Source: a virus. From it: a stretch of 20,695 nt of DNA. Numbering within the stretch: the stretch's first letter is position 1; each line of letters starts with the position of its first letter. The notes below the pieces were generated by a model. The model was not told the DNA's origin and did no database searches. It saw nothing but the letters and a program-made list of their open reading frames with translations. Shown here piece by piece: positions 10,177-20,620 of the stretch. Location: positions 1-20,695 of IMG/VR virus record IMGVR_UViG_3300033273_000436. One strand, 5' to 3'. The position numbers were made by a program, and so were the translations under genes.

Positions 10177-12344
10177 CCACCACTCCCGACATCAAAGGTA
10201 CACTCGCCCGTTTGCTTGCCACCGAGAACCTGATTGTTGAGCACGCTGTATGCGACACTGCATCCTTTGACGTTGACCGTCGTGTGCTCAAGTTGCCCAT
10301 TTGGAAAGATCTGGACAACGATACCTATGACCTGCTCGTCGGTCATGAGGTTGGTCATGCTCTGTTCACTCCTCCCAGCAGTGAGTATGAGGTGCCTGAT
10401 GACATTCCCAAGTCTTACGTCAATGTGACAGAGGATGCTCGTATAGAGAAACACATGAAGACTAAGTTCCCTGGTCTGGGCAAGTCCTTCTATCGTGGTT
10501 ACAACAACCTGCATAACAAAGACTTCTTTGGTATCAGGGATCGTGATCTCAACAAACTCAAACTGATTGACCGCATCAACCTGCACTGCAAGATCGGTGC
10601 CTATGCAATGATCCCCATCAGCGCAGAGGAACAACAGTATCTCGATCTGGTCAAGCAGTCCGAGACCTTTGACGATGCAGTAATCGCTGCTCGCGTACTG
10701 TGGGACCTGCAGAAGCAAGGACGCGAGAAGCAGCAGGACGCACCTGCTGCCAACGACGACTCTGAGAAGGATGGTGTCAGTGGTGAGTCTGAGCAGGAAA
10801 GCAATCCTGTTGAGTATGTCAACGATGACAACGGTCAGCAGTCCGACAGCAACAATGATGATTCTGACGATGCCGATCTGGATATGCCCTCCTACGAGCA
10901 GGGTGGTTTTGATGAGGCAGAGACTGATACCAATCTTACAGACAACCTTGCAAACGCTGCATCCAAGAACTCTTGGGATGAACCTCGCTACGTTGAGATT
11001 GACAATCCCGATCTCAAGCGTGTGATCACTCCTATGAAGTGGGTGCGCGAGAACATTCGTCAGTTCTGGAATCAGATTGATGAAGATCGCAAGAGGTTGG
11101 AGAGCGACTGCCTTGACTTCACCCTTCTGGATGCAGAGTTCAATAAGTTCAACGACTCCACCAACCGTGAGGTGAACTATCTCGTTAAGGAGTTCGAGAT
11201 GAAGAAGTCTGCAGCATCCTATGCACGTCAGACGGTATCCCGCACTGGTGTTCTTGACACTCGTAAAATACATACTTACAAGTTCAATGAAGATCTCTTC
11301 AAGAAGATCACTTCTACCCCTGACGGCAAGAACCATGGTCTGATCTTCATGCTTGACTGGTCTGGTTCTATGTCAGATCACATCTATGAGACCGTTAAGC
11401 AACTGTTGTCTCTTGCATACTTCTGCCGCAAAGTCAACATCCCCTTCACCGTGTACTCCTTTGTGTATGATCATTACCTGACTACACTGAGTCTTGCTGA
11501 TGATGAGGTTTCCCAACCTCTGACTGACAAGCGTGATCACACCATGGTGTTTGATGAGTCATTCCACCTGATTACTCTGCTTGACAGTGAGTCAAACAAG
11601 CGTGACTTCACAGAGTCGGCAAAGCATCTGTTCCGTATCGCATACCAGTATGGTGTTCGCAACTGGGATTATGCTCGTCAGTCTCGTTGGAATCACATTC
11701 CTGTCCCTGGGTTCATGCAGTTGGGTGGCACTCCTCTTAATGAGGCAATCGCTACTCTGCCTGCTCTGATTCCTGCATTTCGTGCTCAGCATGGTGTTGA
11801 GAAACTCAACGTTGTCATCTTGACTGACGGTGAGTCCAACTCCTCCTCTGAGTGGGTGCACAAGGATTACACTCGGACTGATGGTGAGACGGTCAGTACC
11901 ATCTTCTGTTCTGCTATTCGTGACAACACTCGTCTCCGCCATCGTGGCACTGGTCGTGTGTTCCGTGAAACCAGCTGGCACTACCAGTTCACTGATGCAC
12001 TCCTAGACTATGTTCAGGCAGTGTATAAGGATGTCAACATTCTTGGATTCCGTATCGGAACTGCTCGTGAGTGCACCCGTGTGATCACAAACTACCTGGG
12101 TTTCAGCGGCGACAAGTCATTCAAAACCCAAACCGAGTTTAGGAAGAACCGTTCTGTGAGCATCACTGAAACTGGGTATGAAGAGTTGTACTTGATTGCT
12201 TCCTCTGTGCTGGATAACGATGTAGACTTTGATGTGAAGGAGGATGCTACCAAGTCTCAGATCCGTTCTGCATTCCGCAAGACGCTCAAGGGCAAAGCAG
12301 CAAACAAGAAAATCCTTTCGTCGTTCGTTTCCAAGATCACATGA
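10173..12344 (+). CDS. cobT: CobT-like protein: HExxH metalloprotease plus VWA domain
   Basis: A 723-residue protein in two halves. The N-terminal half has HEVGH at 58-62 and, about 25 residues on, NVTEDAR (84-90), the layout of a zinc metalloprotease (two His plus a downstream Glu). Residues about 185-255 are a highly acidic low-complexity linker. The C-terminal half is a von Willebrand A domain with a complete metal-binding MIDAS: DWSGS at 395-399, a downstream Thr in GGTPLNEA, and LTDGES. CobT of aerobic cobaltochelatase and MoxR-partner proteins share this VWA domain, and a CobS/MoxR-type ATPase is encoded nearby at 13252. An in-frame ATG at 10152 would add seven residues; I prefer 10173 because 10152 sits in a possible -10 box. 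True cobalt insertion is doubtful: no CobN is seen, and the protease motif suggests protein remodelling. Confidence 0.85.
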   Translation: MTTTPDIKGTLARLLATENLIVEHAVCDTASFDVDRRVLKLPIWKDLDNDTYDLLVGHEVGHALFTPPSSEYEVPDDIPKSYVNVTEDARIEKHMKTKFPGLGKSFYRGYNNLHNKDFFGIRDRDLNKLKLIDRINLHCKIGAYAMIPISAEEQQYLDLVKQSETFDDAVIAARVLWDLQKQGREKQQDAPAANDDSEKDGVSGESEQESNPVEYVNDDNGQQSDSNNDDSDDADLDMPSYEQGGFDEAETDTNLTDNLANAASKNSWDEPRYVEIDNPDLKRVITPMKWVRENIRQFWNQIDEDRKRLESDCLDFTLLDAEFNKFNDSTNREVNYLVKEFEMKKSAASYARQTVSRTGVLDTRKIHTYKFNEDLFKKITSTPDGKNHGLIFMLDWSGSMSDHIYETVKQLLSLAYFCRKVNIPFTVYSFVYDHYLTTLSLADDEVSQPLTDKRDHTMVFDESFHLITLLDSESNKRDFTESAKHLFRIAYQYGVRNWDYARQSRWNHIPVPGFMQLGGTPLNEAIATLPALIPAFRAQHGVEKLNVVILTDGESNSSSEWVHKDYTRTDGETVSTIFCSAIRDNTRLRHRGTGRVFRETSWHYQFTDALLDYVQAVYKDVNILGFRIGTARECTRVITNYLGFSGDKSFKTQTEFRKNRSVSITETGYEELYLIASSVLDNDVDFDVKEDATKSQIRSAFRKTLKGKAANKKILSSFVSKIT

Positions 12345-12850
12345 ACATCTTTGCAGTTGATGAAGATCCAGTTCTGGCAGCAGGTATGTTGCCAGACAAG
12401 CACATCGTCAAGATGCCATTAGAAACGGCACAGATGTTGGCGATTATCTATAGTCCTCACTATCATGATATCGCCCCCCTTTTCAAAGCGGACGGAACAG
12501 TGTATAATACTAAAAAGGGTGCCTTCAAAAATCATCCTTGTACTAAGTGGGCAGCAGCAACCAAACATAATATCGCTTGGTTAATCGAACATGGTCTAGC
12601 ACTATGTCACGAGTACACCTATCGATACGGTAAGGTTCATGCTTGTCAGAACACAATCGAGATGGCAAACATTATGTGGAGTGGTGCATGTTCTAACAAG
12701 CATTCTCCATTTGTTCGTGCCATGCCCGATGAGTACAAACTTGATACCAGCATTGACACGGTGACTGCGTATCGCATGTATGTTGCTTCAAAACCCTGGG
12801 CAGCGGGCAACTATCTTCGCAAACCTGATCGCAAACCTGATTGGATATGA
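12341..12850 (+). CDS. Conserved phage protein with HxxK/HPC motifs, unknown function
   Basis: A 169-residue protein. It carries a set of polar residues that look catalytic or metal-binding: DKHIVKMPLETAQML near residues 19-33, NHPCTKWAA near 64-72, and LCHEYTYRYGKVHAC near 88-102. The C-terminal part has MPDEYK and an AYRMYVASK segment ending in a Lys/Arg/Pro-rich tail. I recall relatives with the same KMxLExAQxL and HPCxxW motifs in many tailed phages, without a known function. It overlaps cobT and speD by four bases each (ATGA), so it belongs to the same transcript. Confidence 0.75.
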   Translation: MNIFAVDEDPVLAAGMLPDKHIVKMPLETAQMLAIIYSPHYHDIAPLFKADGTVYNTKKGAFKNHPCTKWAAATKHNIAWLIEHGLALCHEYTYRYGKVHACQNTIEMANIMWSGACSNKHSPFVRAMPDEYKLDTSIDTVTAYRMYVASKPWAAGNYLRKPDRKPDWI

Positions 12851-13182
12851 GACACATCCTCTTCACCCTCAAAGGGTGTTCTGCTGTCCTTCTTGATGAC
12901 GAACAATATATTCGGGATGTCATCTATCATGCCAGCGTAAAGTGTGGGTCCACACTTCTTTCGTTGAACTCTCATAAGTTTAATCCTCAAGGTGTAACTT
13001 GTGTTGCCATGTTGGCAGAGAGTCATATTAGTATTCACACTTGGCCAGAGTTAGGCATGGCAGTGTGTGATGTTTTCACCTGTGGTGATCACACCAAACC
13101 CCAGGACGGGGTGGACTACATGTACTCCATGATGCACGCTACCAACGTGGTCAGTCAGGAGTTCAGGAGACCACTTGCCTAA
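12847..13182 (+). CDS. speD: S-adenosylmethionine decarboxylase SpeD
   Basis: A 111-residue pyruvoyl enzyme making decarboxylated SAM, the aminopropyl donor for spermidine synthesis. The signature AESHISIHTWPE lies at residues 57-68: the proenzyme cuts itself between Glu58 and Ser59, and Ser59 becomes the pyruvoyl group; His64 and Cys79 (in DVFTCG) match the processing and catalytic residues. The length fits the short prokaryotic form. I start at the ATG at 12847, which overlaps the previous stop; a TTG two codons earlier is less likely. speD is a known auxiliary gene of cyanophages; polyamines may help DNA packaging or protect host photosystems, which is inference. Confidence 0.95.
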   Translation: MRHILFTLKGCSAVLLDDEQYIRDVIYHASVKCGSTLLSLNSHKFNPQGVTCVAMLAESHISIHTWPELGMAVCDVFTCGDHTKPQDGVDYMYSMMHATNVVSQEFRRPLA

Positions 13183-18164: not shown

Positions 18165-18586
18165 GTGAGGAGATCAAGTGGTCTCAAGATCTGATGTTAG
18201 AAGTCTCCCTTCGTGAACCCGATGATTTTCTGAAAGTCCGTGAAACGTTGACCAGAATCGGTGTCGCTTCTCGCAAGGAAAGAAAACTATATCAGTCTTG
18301 CCACATCCTACATAAGAAGGGCAAGTATTATATTGTCCACTTCAAAGAACTGTTTGCCCTGGACGGCAAGCAAACGAACATTAGTGAGAACGATGTGCAA
18401 CGACGCAATAGGATTGCACGTCTGCTCTCAGACTGGGGTTTGATTACAGTAGTTAACGAACTCGTAGACGAACAACTAGCACCATTGAACCAAATCAAAG
18501 TCCTGTCCTACAAGGACAAGGGTGAGTGGATCTTGGAATCGAAATATAATATCGGTAAGAAAAAGGTAGCAATCGCGGAAGTATAA
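18161..18586 (+). CDS. regA: RegA translational repressor
   Basis: A 141-residue RNA-binding protein; T4 RegA has 122. It blocks translation of early messages, including gp44, gp45 and its own, by covering their initiation sites. The match is extensive: EPDDFLKVRETLTRIGVASR, then LYQSCHILHKKGKYYIVHFK, then RRNRIARLLSDWGLI follow T4 RegA almost residue for residue, and WILESKYNIG matches its C-terminus. The extra residues are mainly an N-terminal extension (SEEIKWSQDL) and a lysine-rich end. It overlaps gp62 by four bases and has the best Shine-Dalgarno in the cluster. A late promoter overlaps its stop codon. Confidence 0.97.
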   Translation: MSEEIKWSQDLMLEVSLREPDDFLKVRETLTRIGVASRKERKLYQSCHILHKKGKYYIVHFKELFALDGKQTNISENDVQRRNRIARLLSDWGLITVVNELVDEQLAPLNQIKVLSYKDKGEWILESKYNIGKKKVAIAEV

Positions 18587-18589
18587 ATA
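18582..18589 (+). promoter_or_regulatory. T4-type late promoter TATAAATA
   Basis: A perfect TATAAATA, the consensus read by RNA polymerase carrying gp55. It overlaps the regA stop codon (TAA at 18584-18586) and lies 22 bases before the ATG of the next gene, so transcription should begin at about 18595-18600. I saw no other exact TATAAATA at a gene boundary here. It implies that the genes from 18612 on are expressed late. Confidence 0.8.
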
Positions 18590-18611
18590 GCCATGCCTTC
18601 CCCAACTACCT

Positions 18612-18944
18612 ATGACGGAATCTAAACCCGCCGTGGTAGAGAAGGAAGACCACGATGAAGATAAAAGTGAAGTCCTTGGTAATCTGGTGAAAGTCGTTGT
18701 ACTTATCTGGTCTGCTTCTCTCCTCACATTCTCATACGTTCGACTTCCTAATGGGCAAAAGATCTTAGATTTTGACCCCACCTTCATTGCCTCGGTGTTT
18801 TCTGGCTCGTTAGCTGCGTTCGGACTGTCTCCTGCTAAATCAGGTGGTGGTAATGGTAACGGTGCTGCCAAGAAAGTAGGAGCAAAGAAAGAACCAGAAG
18901 TTGTGTCCGCTATCGAACCCAAAAAAGATGCAAAAGATAGTTAA
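18612..18944 (+). CDS. Two-helix membrane protein under a late promoter; holin candidate
   Basis: A 110-residue protein. A charged N-terminus (KEDHDEDKSE) is followed by two hydrophobic segments, about 24-43 (NLVKVVVLIWSASLLTFSYV) and 55-74 (DPTFIASVFSGSLAAFGLSP), separated by a short polar loop, and then a Gly/Asn/Lys-rich tail with many lysines. Two transmembrane helices, about 110 residues and a charged C-terminus are the layout of class II holins, but no sequence family supports this and many phage proteins look similar. No Shine-Dalgarno precedes the start. The late promoter at 18582 fits lysis or virion assembly. Confidence 0.75.
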   Translation: MTESKPAVVEKEDHDEDKSEVLGNLVKVVVLIWSASLLTFSYVRLPNGQKILDFDPTFIASVFSGSLAAFGLSPAKSGGGNGNGAAKKVGAKKEPEVVSAIEPKKDAKDS

Positions 18945-19197
18945 TGTACTTGCTGTGTCGTCTTTTCTTGTATCTGCTGCCATTGTTGCTGGTGGTAGTT
19001 ACGTTTATCTCAATAGAGATAATCTCGTAGAAGGCGTCAAATCTCAGATCACAGCAGGAATCAAAGCAACAGTCGCAGATGCACTACCTGGCATGTTAGA
19101 TGCCGCAATGCCGAAGATGCCTGAGGTAACTGGTGGTGCTATCCCCGAAGGTGGTACGTCCCTTCCCACGACGACAGGTCCCGCTCTCCCCTTCTGA
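18928..19197 (+). CDS. Small membrane-anchored protein with Pro/Gly-rich tail
   Basis: An 89-residue protein starting MQKIVNVLAVSSFLVSAAIV. The first about 28 residues form an N-terminal membrane anchor or signal, then an amphipathic helix (VEGVKSQITAGIKATVADAL), then a tail rich in Pro, Gly and Thr (TGGAIPEGGTSLPTTTGPAL). The ATG at 18928 is preferred over an upstream TTG because the conserved part begins there. It overlaps the previous gene by 17 bases. I recall very similar proteins in other cyanomyoviruses, annotated hypothetical. Function unknown. Confidence 0.75.
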   Translation: MQKIVNVLAVSSFLVSAAIVAGGSYVYLNRDNLVEGVKSQITAGIKATVADALPGMLDAAMPKMPEVTGGAIPEGGTSLPTTTGPALPF

Positions 19198-19199
19198 GC

Positions 19200-19826
19200 A
19201 TGTTCTGGAAGTCCAAAGTACAATCTGTGGAGGAAACGCCAATGGAAACTCCAACTAAGAAGTCATCACCAATAAAACCTATTGGATTGGCATTGTTGGG
19301 TCTTATAGGTGTTGCTCACATAGGTGTACTTGGGCATCTGATCAACAGACCACAGTATCCTGTCATCAACTTCCCTCAAGGTGACTACTCATCTTATGAA
19401 GTGGAAGCAACGAGAGATGGGTATAAGATTAAATACAAAGCAAACGACCCTGCTATCCTAGAATCAAATCGTTCATTGAATCTGGACAAACATAAAGAAG
19501 GATTCTTTGGTGGAACTACAACTGAAATGCGAAGAGAACTTCGTAGGGACCAATACACGATGGACGGTGCTAGAAACCTAGGGGGCGGCGCAATAGACGC
19601 CGAGGGAAAGTCCCTTGCAAAAAGCGAAGAGTGTATCAGGGCGGACGCTGGAGCACGGTCTCAAGGTGCCCTCGCGGGGACTAGCATCGCTGCAGGTGCC
19701 TTTGTACCTGCTGTCGTCAACATACCCTACATAGGGTGGTTGGCTGCAGGATGGGTAACTCTTCTTGGTGGAAAGGTTGGGTCTGATATTGGGTCTGAAG
19801 TTGGTCAAGTTTTTAACGATTGCTAA
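19200..19826 (+). CDS. Membrane protein with glycine-zipper-like C-terminus
   Basis: A 208-residue protein. After a polar N-terminus there is a hydrophobic helix at about 28-48 (PIGLALLGLIGVAHIGVLGH), a soluble mid-region with charged helices (TEMRRELRRDQYTMD), and a long Gly/Ala-rich hydrophobic end from about 155 (GALAGTSIAAGAFVPAVVNI and on to LGGKVGSDIGSEVG) that resembles the glycine-zipper hairpins of pore-forming or envelope-inserting proteins. No family recognised. It starts two bases after the previous stop and shares a base with the next start (TAATG). Confidence 0.7.
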   Translation: MFWKSKVQSVEETPMETPTKKSSPIKPIGLALLGLIGVAHIGVLGHLINRPQYPVINFPQGDYSSYEVEATRDGYKIKYKANDPAILESNRSLNLDKHKEGFFGGTTTEMRRELRRDQYTMDGARNLGGGAIDAEGKSLAKSEECIRADAGARSQGALAGTSIAAGAFVPAVVNIPYIGWLAAGWVTLLGGKVGSDIGSEVGQVFNDC

Positions 19827-20620
19827 TGGATATCCCTATTATTACTTCTCCCAATATTGATATTGGGGAGATTGAAATACCCAATACTCTTAATACTACT
19901 TCACCCGCAATCCCTGCAGCACCACCAGTTGTGGTGAATATTGGTGTGCCTGTTGTTGATATTCCTGGATGTGTAGAGGCACACGAGAGTAACAGCAAAT
20001 CTAAAACTGTCGGAAGTGATGACGACAGAGGACTGGTTACGTATTGTGATTCTGGGGTTCCTAGTTTTAATCCTATTCAGTTTGAACCTGAGCAGATAGT
20101 CCCCACCTATCCTGCTGGTGTTGATACTAGACCAAAGGAAGAACCCAAACCGCCAGGGCAGGTAGAACTACCACCAGCAGCAACACCTGCCACTGCTAAG
20201 ATAGATTGTCCTACACCAGCACAGCAGGCAAAGGAACCTGTAGGAACATACATCGAAGGTTTCAGGAAGAAGGTTACTGAATACAAACTTATAGGGAAGG
20301 AGTGTATTCAGATTACAGAGAAAGTCCCACTACCAGAACAAATCATCGCTGGTGCTCCCAGTGCTGGTGTCGTGATGACAACCGCAAGTATTGCTGTCGT
20401 TGCTACAACTTCAGCACTATTAGCAAAACCGCTGGCAGACATACTATTGAAAGTAGTCAGACCAACAGTCAAGAAGGTGATGAAGAAGATTGCTGCAATC
20501 AGAAAGAAACCTATTCCCGTCCAGAGCGTAGGTGACCGCCGAGCAGAGCAGCGTCAGATGAACCATGCTGTTCGTGAGTTGCGTTCTGTTTTCCCGAGGA
20601 GGAAGAAACGGAAGGGATAG
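19826..20620 (+). CDS. Proline-rich membrane protein with very basic C-terminus
   Basis: A 264-residue protein with three parts. Residues 1-135 are Pro/Ile/Val-rich and low in complexity (for example NTLNTTSPAIPAAPPVVVNI; PPGQVELPPAATPATA) with Cys49, Cys74 and Cys128. Residues about 173-200 are a hydrophobic helix (GVVMTTASIAVVATTSALLA). Residues 208-264 are strongly basic and probably helical, ending RRKKRKG. This suggests a membrane protein with a nucleic-acid-binding or membrane-surface tail. The ATG at 19826 overlaps the previous stop. No family recognised. Confidence 0.7.
   Translation: MDIPIITSPNIDIGEIEIPNTLNTTSPAIPAAPPVVVNIGVPVVDIPGCVEAHESNSKSKTVGSDDDRGLVTYCDSGVPSFNPIQFEPEQIVPTYPAGVDTRPKEEPKPPGQVELPPAATPATAKIDCPTPAQQAKEPVGTYIEGFRKKVTEYKLIGKECIQITEKVPLPEQIIAGAPSAGVVMTTASIAVVATTSALLAKPLADILLKVVRPTVKKVMKKIAAIRKKPIPVQSVGDRRAEQRQMNHAVRELRSVFPRRKKRKG

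Follow-up and report, generated by a model that had tools for sequence, protein, structure and literature searches.

A late-promoter block of four predicted membrane-protein genes is one arm of a putative envelope cassette common to three kinds of marine cyanophage

Phage lysis of Prochlorococcus and Synechococcus accounts for a large flux of carbon in the ocean, and no genes for opening the envelope have been recognised in these viruses. Two-component spanins, such as lambda Rz/Rz1, consist of a membrane protein and an exported partner, with a proline-rich periplasmic part and conserved cysteines (PMC6139136). In a survey that covered about 20 phages isolated on these two hosts, no spanins were found, the outer membrane being perhaps simply fragile, and the phages listed without spanins include Syn9, S-SM1, S-RSM4, and P-SSP7, among other cyanophages; in the same paper, a type I (N-out, C-in) protein is named as a possible i-spanin (Kongari et al. 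2018, PMC6139136). With regard to late transcription, the published late motif is NATAAATA/TATAAATA, of which NATAAATA occurs in S-PM2 (PMC2984593).

A mobile cassette comprising T4-GCs 218, 219, 234, 235, and 237 together with a plasmid stability protein was described by Sullivan et al. 2010 (PMC3037559). The passages of that paper that describe it treat it as a myovirus mobility cassette and mention no late promoters, podovirus or siphovirus copies, or lysis role. Here, the genes of this cassette are analysed in a window of 20,695 nucleotides (positions 1 to 20,695 of IMG/VR record IMGVR_UViG_3300033273_000436), which is a fragment of a T4-like cyanophage extending from the major capsid region to the replication region. 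Four genes of the window, A to D, are the same genes as in the 2010 cassette, and both orthology and order are confirmed: in S-SM1, SSM1_163-166 correspond to T4-GCs 218, 414, 219, and 234 and match A, B, C, and D in order, and T4-GCs 235, 236, and 237 come next on the other strand. While the four genes themselves were known, the late promoter borne by the block, the facing operon for exported proteins, the occurrence in three virion types, and the lysis hypothesis are new relative to 2010. As judged from sequence comparison, A-D are one arm of a late cassette common to three unrelated kinds of marine cyanophage (Table 1).

Table 1. Position and character of the promoter element and genes at the end of the window
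Feature	Position	Strand	Description
Element TATAAATA	18582-18589	+	T4-type late promoter; core TAAATA 18584-18589; overlaps regA stop
5' leader of gene A	18590-18611	+	no hairpin here; hairpin in many relatives
Gene A	18612-18944	+	110 aa; two predicted membrane segments, charged tails; DUF6450 (PF20048), phrog_721, T4-GC 218
Gene B	18928-19197	+	89 aa; one N-terminal membrane segment; phrog_568, T4-GC 414
Gene C	19200-19826	+	208 aa; N-terminal membrane segment, conserved domain, glycine-zipper-like C-terminus; phrog_605, T4-GC 219
Gene D	19826-20620	+	264 aa; acidic proline-rich N-part, C-terminal membrane segment, basic tail; phrog_570, T4-GC 234
gp165 homolog, C-terminal 60 codons	20511-20693	-	phrog_848, T4-GC 235; last gene of the facing operon

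The first-pass annotation had noticed a perfect TATAAATA on the regA stop codon, followed by four packed membrane-protein genes, and both are present. The regA stop TAA (18584-18586) lies within the element, neighbouring genes from A to D overlap or stand 2 nt apart, and each of the four has at least one predicted membrane segment. By hydropathy, A has two segments, of which the second is weak, B has a single one, D has one close to its C-terminus, and C has a strong one plus a weaker C-terminal glycine-rich one. On the other hand, the proteins had been thought to be unlike any family, which does not hold, as all four belong to described families (Table 1), those of the mobile cassette of Sullivan et al. 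2010. The block had also been regarded as placed among replication genes, and its position after regA proves ordinary in cyanomyoviruses (Syn9, S-SM1, and S-RIM50); in other genomes it stands beside virion genes, as in S-RSM4, where the two genes immediately upstream are annotated as virion structural proteins, or near psbA, as in S-SCSM1, whose cassette lies near psbA/psbD and has no gene A. The four genes are not a constant unit either: the commonest myovirus order is A B C D on one strand facing gp165 gp166 gp167 on the other, many loci have the variant A C...B D, and C, in which C145 and C208 are invariant, is confined to cyanomyoviruses among the loci examined.

That the block carries its own late promoter, as had been claimed, is strongly backed by comparison of upstream regions. 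In the window, TATAAATA occurs only once when both strands are counted, against 0.17 copies per strand expected under a first-order Markov model, and the ATG of gene A follows its start by 30 nt and the TAAATA core by 28 nt. Of the 77 gene A loci taken from IMG/VR and reference phages, 75 have TAAATA 26-30 nt ahead of the start codon. When only distinct upstream regions are counted, it precedes A in 48/50, B in 3/45, C in 3/53, and D in 0/36 (shuffled mean 2.4); in a wider set, A has it in 95 of 104 distinct upstream regions from cyanomyoviruses (shuffled mean 5.8) and gp167, which opens the facing operon, in 63 of 90, while the frequency of the hexamer before B, C, D, gp165, gp166, regA, and gp62 is at background level. 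The hexamer is kept when the upstream gene differs, such as in S-RSM4. In S-CREM2, used as a positive control, TAAATA is in position for 15 of 24 virion-detected genes vs. 5 of 14 others. When the 31 gene starts of the window are scanned for TAAATA in the interval 18-42 nt upstream, only three carry it, at spacings of 26 (the gene that follows gp23), 27 (the gene at 2198), and 28 (gene A), and from UvsW to regA no gene start has it in that interval. The window also encodes gp55-like and gp45 genes. In contrast, TAAATA precedes A in 0/59 T7-like (podovirus) copies and in 2/49 siphovirus-type copies, in phages that are not expected to use gp55. The comparative counts, the positive control, and the distribution in the window together make late activity of the T4-type promoter of the block a well-supported inference.

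The element thus resembles T4 late promoters in having TATAAATA with a TAAATA core that is correctly placed before the block. It differs from them in cyanophages in that TAAATA is the sole constant part, often including the TAA of the upstream stop codon. As the conserved element, the perfect TATAAATA noted at first was rejected in favour of the hexamer, because the exact octamers of S-RIM50, S-SM1, and Syn9 are inside gp62 and not before A. These copies share one offset within gp62 (215 nt; S-RIM50 129693, S-SM1 130377, and Syn9 134727) and may stem from constraint on the coding sequence or serve as an internal promoter of regA. In addition, many A leaders, from TAAATA to the A start (loci L007-L173), contain a short hairpin, such as GAGC-CTT-GCTC, GATGAGCC...GGCTCATC, or CTCAGA-GTTA-TCTGAG, and the mean stem is 4.05 bp vs. 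2.96 bp in shuffles; in the leader of the window, the stem has only 2 bp and the hairpin is not formed.

Besides A-D, the cassette includes three facing genes for exported proteins, gp167, gp166, and gp165, which are added to it here and of which one enters the window. The homolog of Syn9 gp165 is antisense to the 3' end of D, with which it overlaps, and the end of the window falls inside its gene. gp166 and gp167 both begin with a signal-peptide-like sequence, and a hydrophobic stretch in gp165 ends in a cleavage-like site; by eye, the signal sequences of gp165 and gp166 are of the Sec type and contain no lipobox. The start of gp165 lies out of frame inside gp166, and the two genes overlap by a median of 166 nt in myoviruses and 139 nt in siphoviruses. 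Structure prediction for gp165 was weak (mean pLDDT 51) and gave no significant fold match. Among gp165 loci from genome collections (L335-L349), most are on contigs that bear labels such as Lewinella, Formosa, and Euryarchaeota, and one is in the isolate genome Nonlabens xiamenensis 1Q3 (188 kb contig); all of these look like cyanophage sequence that was assigned to the wrong organism.

Cyanophages of three virion types share these families. Both A and gp165 are found in the T7-like P-SSP7, P-SSP10, NATL1A-7, and S-TIP37 and in the siphovirus MED4-117, and homologs of A have thus been detected in cyanopodoviruses and a siphovirus. Profile searches revealed a siphovirus-type order, A gp167 gp166 gp165 facing D B, in 64 of 80 loci, and a podovirus-type order, D-like, A, gp166, gp165, in 70 of 80 loci. 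PHROG matches independently confirm the siphovirus members (gp166, 4e-45; gp167, 5e-40; D, 3e-44; B, 9e-18) and gp166 of podoviruses (5e-32). A podovirus gp167 is not claimed, since the gp167 and gp166 profiles match one and the same ORF there. The families A, gp166, and gp165 recur together in T4-like, T7-like, and siphovirus-type cyanophages, D occurs in two of these lineages, and a D-like protein occurs in the third. The cassette is carried by most sequenced T4-like and many T7-like cyanophages. PSS2, Syn5, S-PM2, P60, and S-CBS4 have neither A nor gp165, nor does S-SZBM1, and S-CREM2 has neither save for one sub-threshold A match, so that the cassette is not needed by every cyanophage. Its families are found in cyanophages only, and no homology to host proteins was detected, matches in genome collections being mostly phage-like or misbinned contigs. 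In the S-TIP37 record, the homolog of gene A (L091 6501-6629) is left unannotated, and gp46 resembles the D-like protein with a frame problem at its end.

In P-SSP7, P-SSP10, and S-TIP37, the cassette is located between the tail fibre and the small or large terminase genes. The T7 holin gp17.5 sits between the tail fibre and small terminase genes. The cyanopodovirus cassette thus occupies the same interval as the late lysis region of T7 (gp17.5 holin and gp18.5/18.7 spanins, around gp18/gp19) and likewise starts with small membrane proteins; it differs by the additional exported gp166 and gp165, and no lipoprotein o-spanin of the T7 type was seen. No sequence relation of the cassette to T7 lysis proteins is claimed.

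The form of gene A is that of a class II holin, being small with two membrane segments and charged ends, and the depositors of P-SSP7 likewise note two TM regions in its homolog. As in class II holins (such as T7 gp17.5), there are about 80-160 aa, two membrane segments, a short loop, and charged termini. However, A has no sequence match to any known holin family and matches only DUF6450 and PHROGs of unknown function; it is therefore put forward as a holin-like candidate. In D, the N-terminal part of 115 myovirus proteins contains 14% Pro, a charge of -9, and four Cys, and the C-terminal tail has a charge of +14. The four cysteines are invariant and kept in myo- and siphoviruses. Given the basic tail and the one membrane segment, the N-part is predicted to be periplasmic by the positive-inside rule, and the charge pattern fits an N-out/C-in protein with a single C-terminal segment, a putative topology that is reversed relative to Rz. 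The podovirus D-like protein has the same architecture without the cysteines, and its similarity to D is weak (hhalign probability 54%, 35 columns). Searching solved structures by sequence found nothing for C or D, and structure prediction for D was weak (mean pLDDT 67), with no significant match to a solved fold. D is considered a candidate inverted spanin-like protein.

Taken with the spanins, the cassette is similar in having a membrane protein with exported partners, a proline-rich part predicted to be periplasmic, and conserved cysteines, and the out-of-frame overlap of gp166/gp165 is similar to that of overlapped spanin pairs. It differs from lambda in that D, with its C-terminal anchor, would be the reverse of Rz and in that no lipoprotein was identified in the cassette. 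The proteins do not conform to standard spanins: a lipobox is not seen by eye in gp165 or gp166, and a signal peptide is absent from D. The cassette also yielded no endolysin; gp165 was considered for this role and rejected for lack of an enzyme family match.

The first-pass annotation had left open whether the proteins are a lysis, envelope-spanning, or virion-internal system, and of these, an envelope or lysis role has become the leading reading. Lysis fits best with the late timing, the T7-like genome position, the sharing across virion types, and the envelope targeting, and a late lysis module, in which A is holin-like, D is inverted spanin-like, and gp166/gp165 are exported partners, is given about an even chance. 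The block would be the membrane-protein arm of a cyanophage envelope cassette that is switched on late by the TAAATA element of the sigma-gp55/clamp type before A and before gp167. In this scheme, A would make the inner membrane permeable, as class II holins do. D would be anchored by its C-terminal membrane segment with the acidic proline-rich part towards the periplasm and, with the exported gp166/gp165 pair, would disrupt the outer membrane as an inverted-topology spanin analogue; B and C may be accessory membrane proteins. A more tentative proposal, with perhaps one chance in three of being correct, is that a single exchangeable lysis system of a non-canonical kind is common to all three virion types and consists of a holin-like protein, an inverted spanin-like protein of the inner membrane, and an overlapping-gene exported pair without a lipoprotein. 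If true, such a system would account for the breach of the cyanobacterial outer membrane by phages in which no spanin is listed, a step for which the cassette supplies named candidate genes.

Among other explanations, the proteins may be packaged or injected and form a channel or an anchor in the host envelope at infection, as a virion or DNA-ejection module. Its late promoter, the S-RSM4 arrangement, and the glycine-zipper-like C-terminus of C are consistent with this, but myo-, sipho-, and podoviruses share the cassette despite their different virions, and the signal-peptide-like N-termini of gp166 and gp167 point to the periplasm rather than to particles. On both grounds, occurrence in three virion types and export of the partner proteins, we regard a virion role as unlikely. 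The virion proteome tables of S-CREM2 and S-SZBM1 were unusable as evidence on this point, as both phages have neither D nor gp165; the S-CREM2 hypothetical proteins tested matched other families or none. Late remodelling of the host surface, for example for superinfection exclusion or protection of the infected cell, would likewise suit a late promoter, the combination of exported gp165-167 with membrane proteins, and a host-specific distribution in cyanophages only. Since exclusion systems are usually early or middle and the T7-like genome position matches a lysis region, this seems a still slimmer prospect than a virion role.

Support of host membranes or photosynthesis during infection would account for the restriction of the cassette to phages of cyanobacteria and for the S-SCSM1 copy near psbA/psbD. 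However, photosynthesis-type auxiliary genes are reported to be of the middle class (PMC5082946) while the cassette has late promoter elements, and the absence of detectable homology to host proteins also makes such a role improbable. The published reading, proposed in the cassette passages of PMC3037559 and repeated in PMC9602691, is that of a mobile cassette carried by a plasmid-stability protein, possibly for pseudolysogeny, and it agrees with the varying location among cyanomyoviruses. Among the families matched by the four proteins, only phrog_568, that of B, bears a functional name, 'plasmid stability', but B has no Pfam or NCBIfam match at E up to 1, to a plasmid-stability or toxin-antitoxin family or to any other, and consists of one membrane segment and a short tail, so that this widely copied annotation is unsupported; mobility would also leave the late promoters and the conservation across three virion types unexplained. 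We consider it the least probable reading, and a very improbable one.

Some further observations were made. In S-CREM2, gp131 (L004 11580-11774), which has 64 codons and lies among virion genes with TATAAATA directly upstream, is the sub-threshold match to DUF6450 (E 9.9e-4) and could represent a vestige of gene A or a diverged version of it, the rest of the cassette being absent from this phage. In addition, the replication region of the window contains a pyrimidine dimer DNA glycosylase gene followed by S-adenosylmethionine decarboxylase (speD) at 12341-13182.
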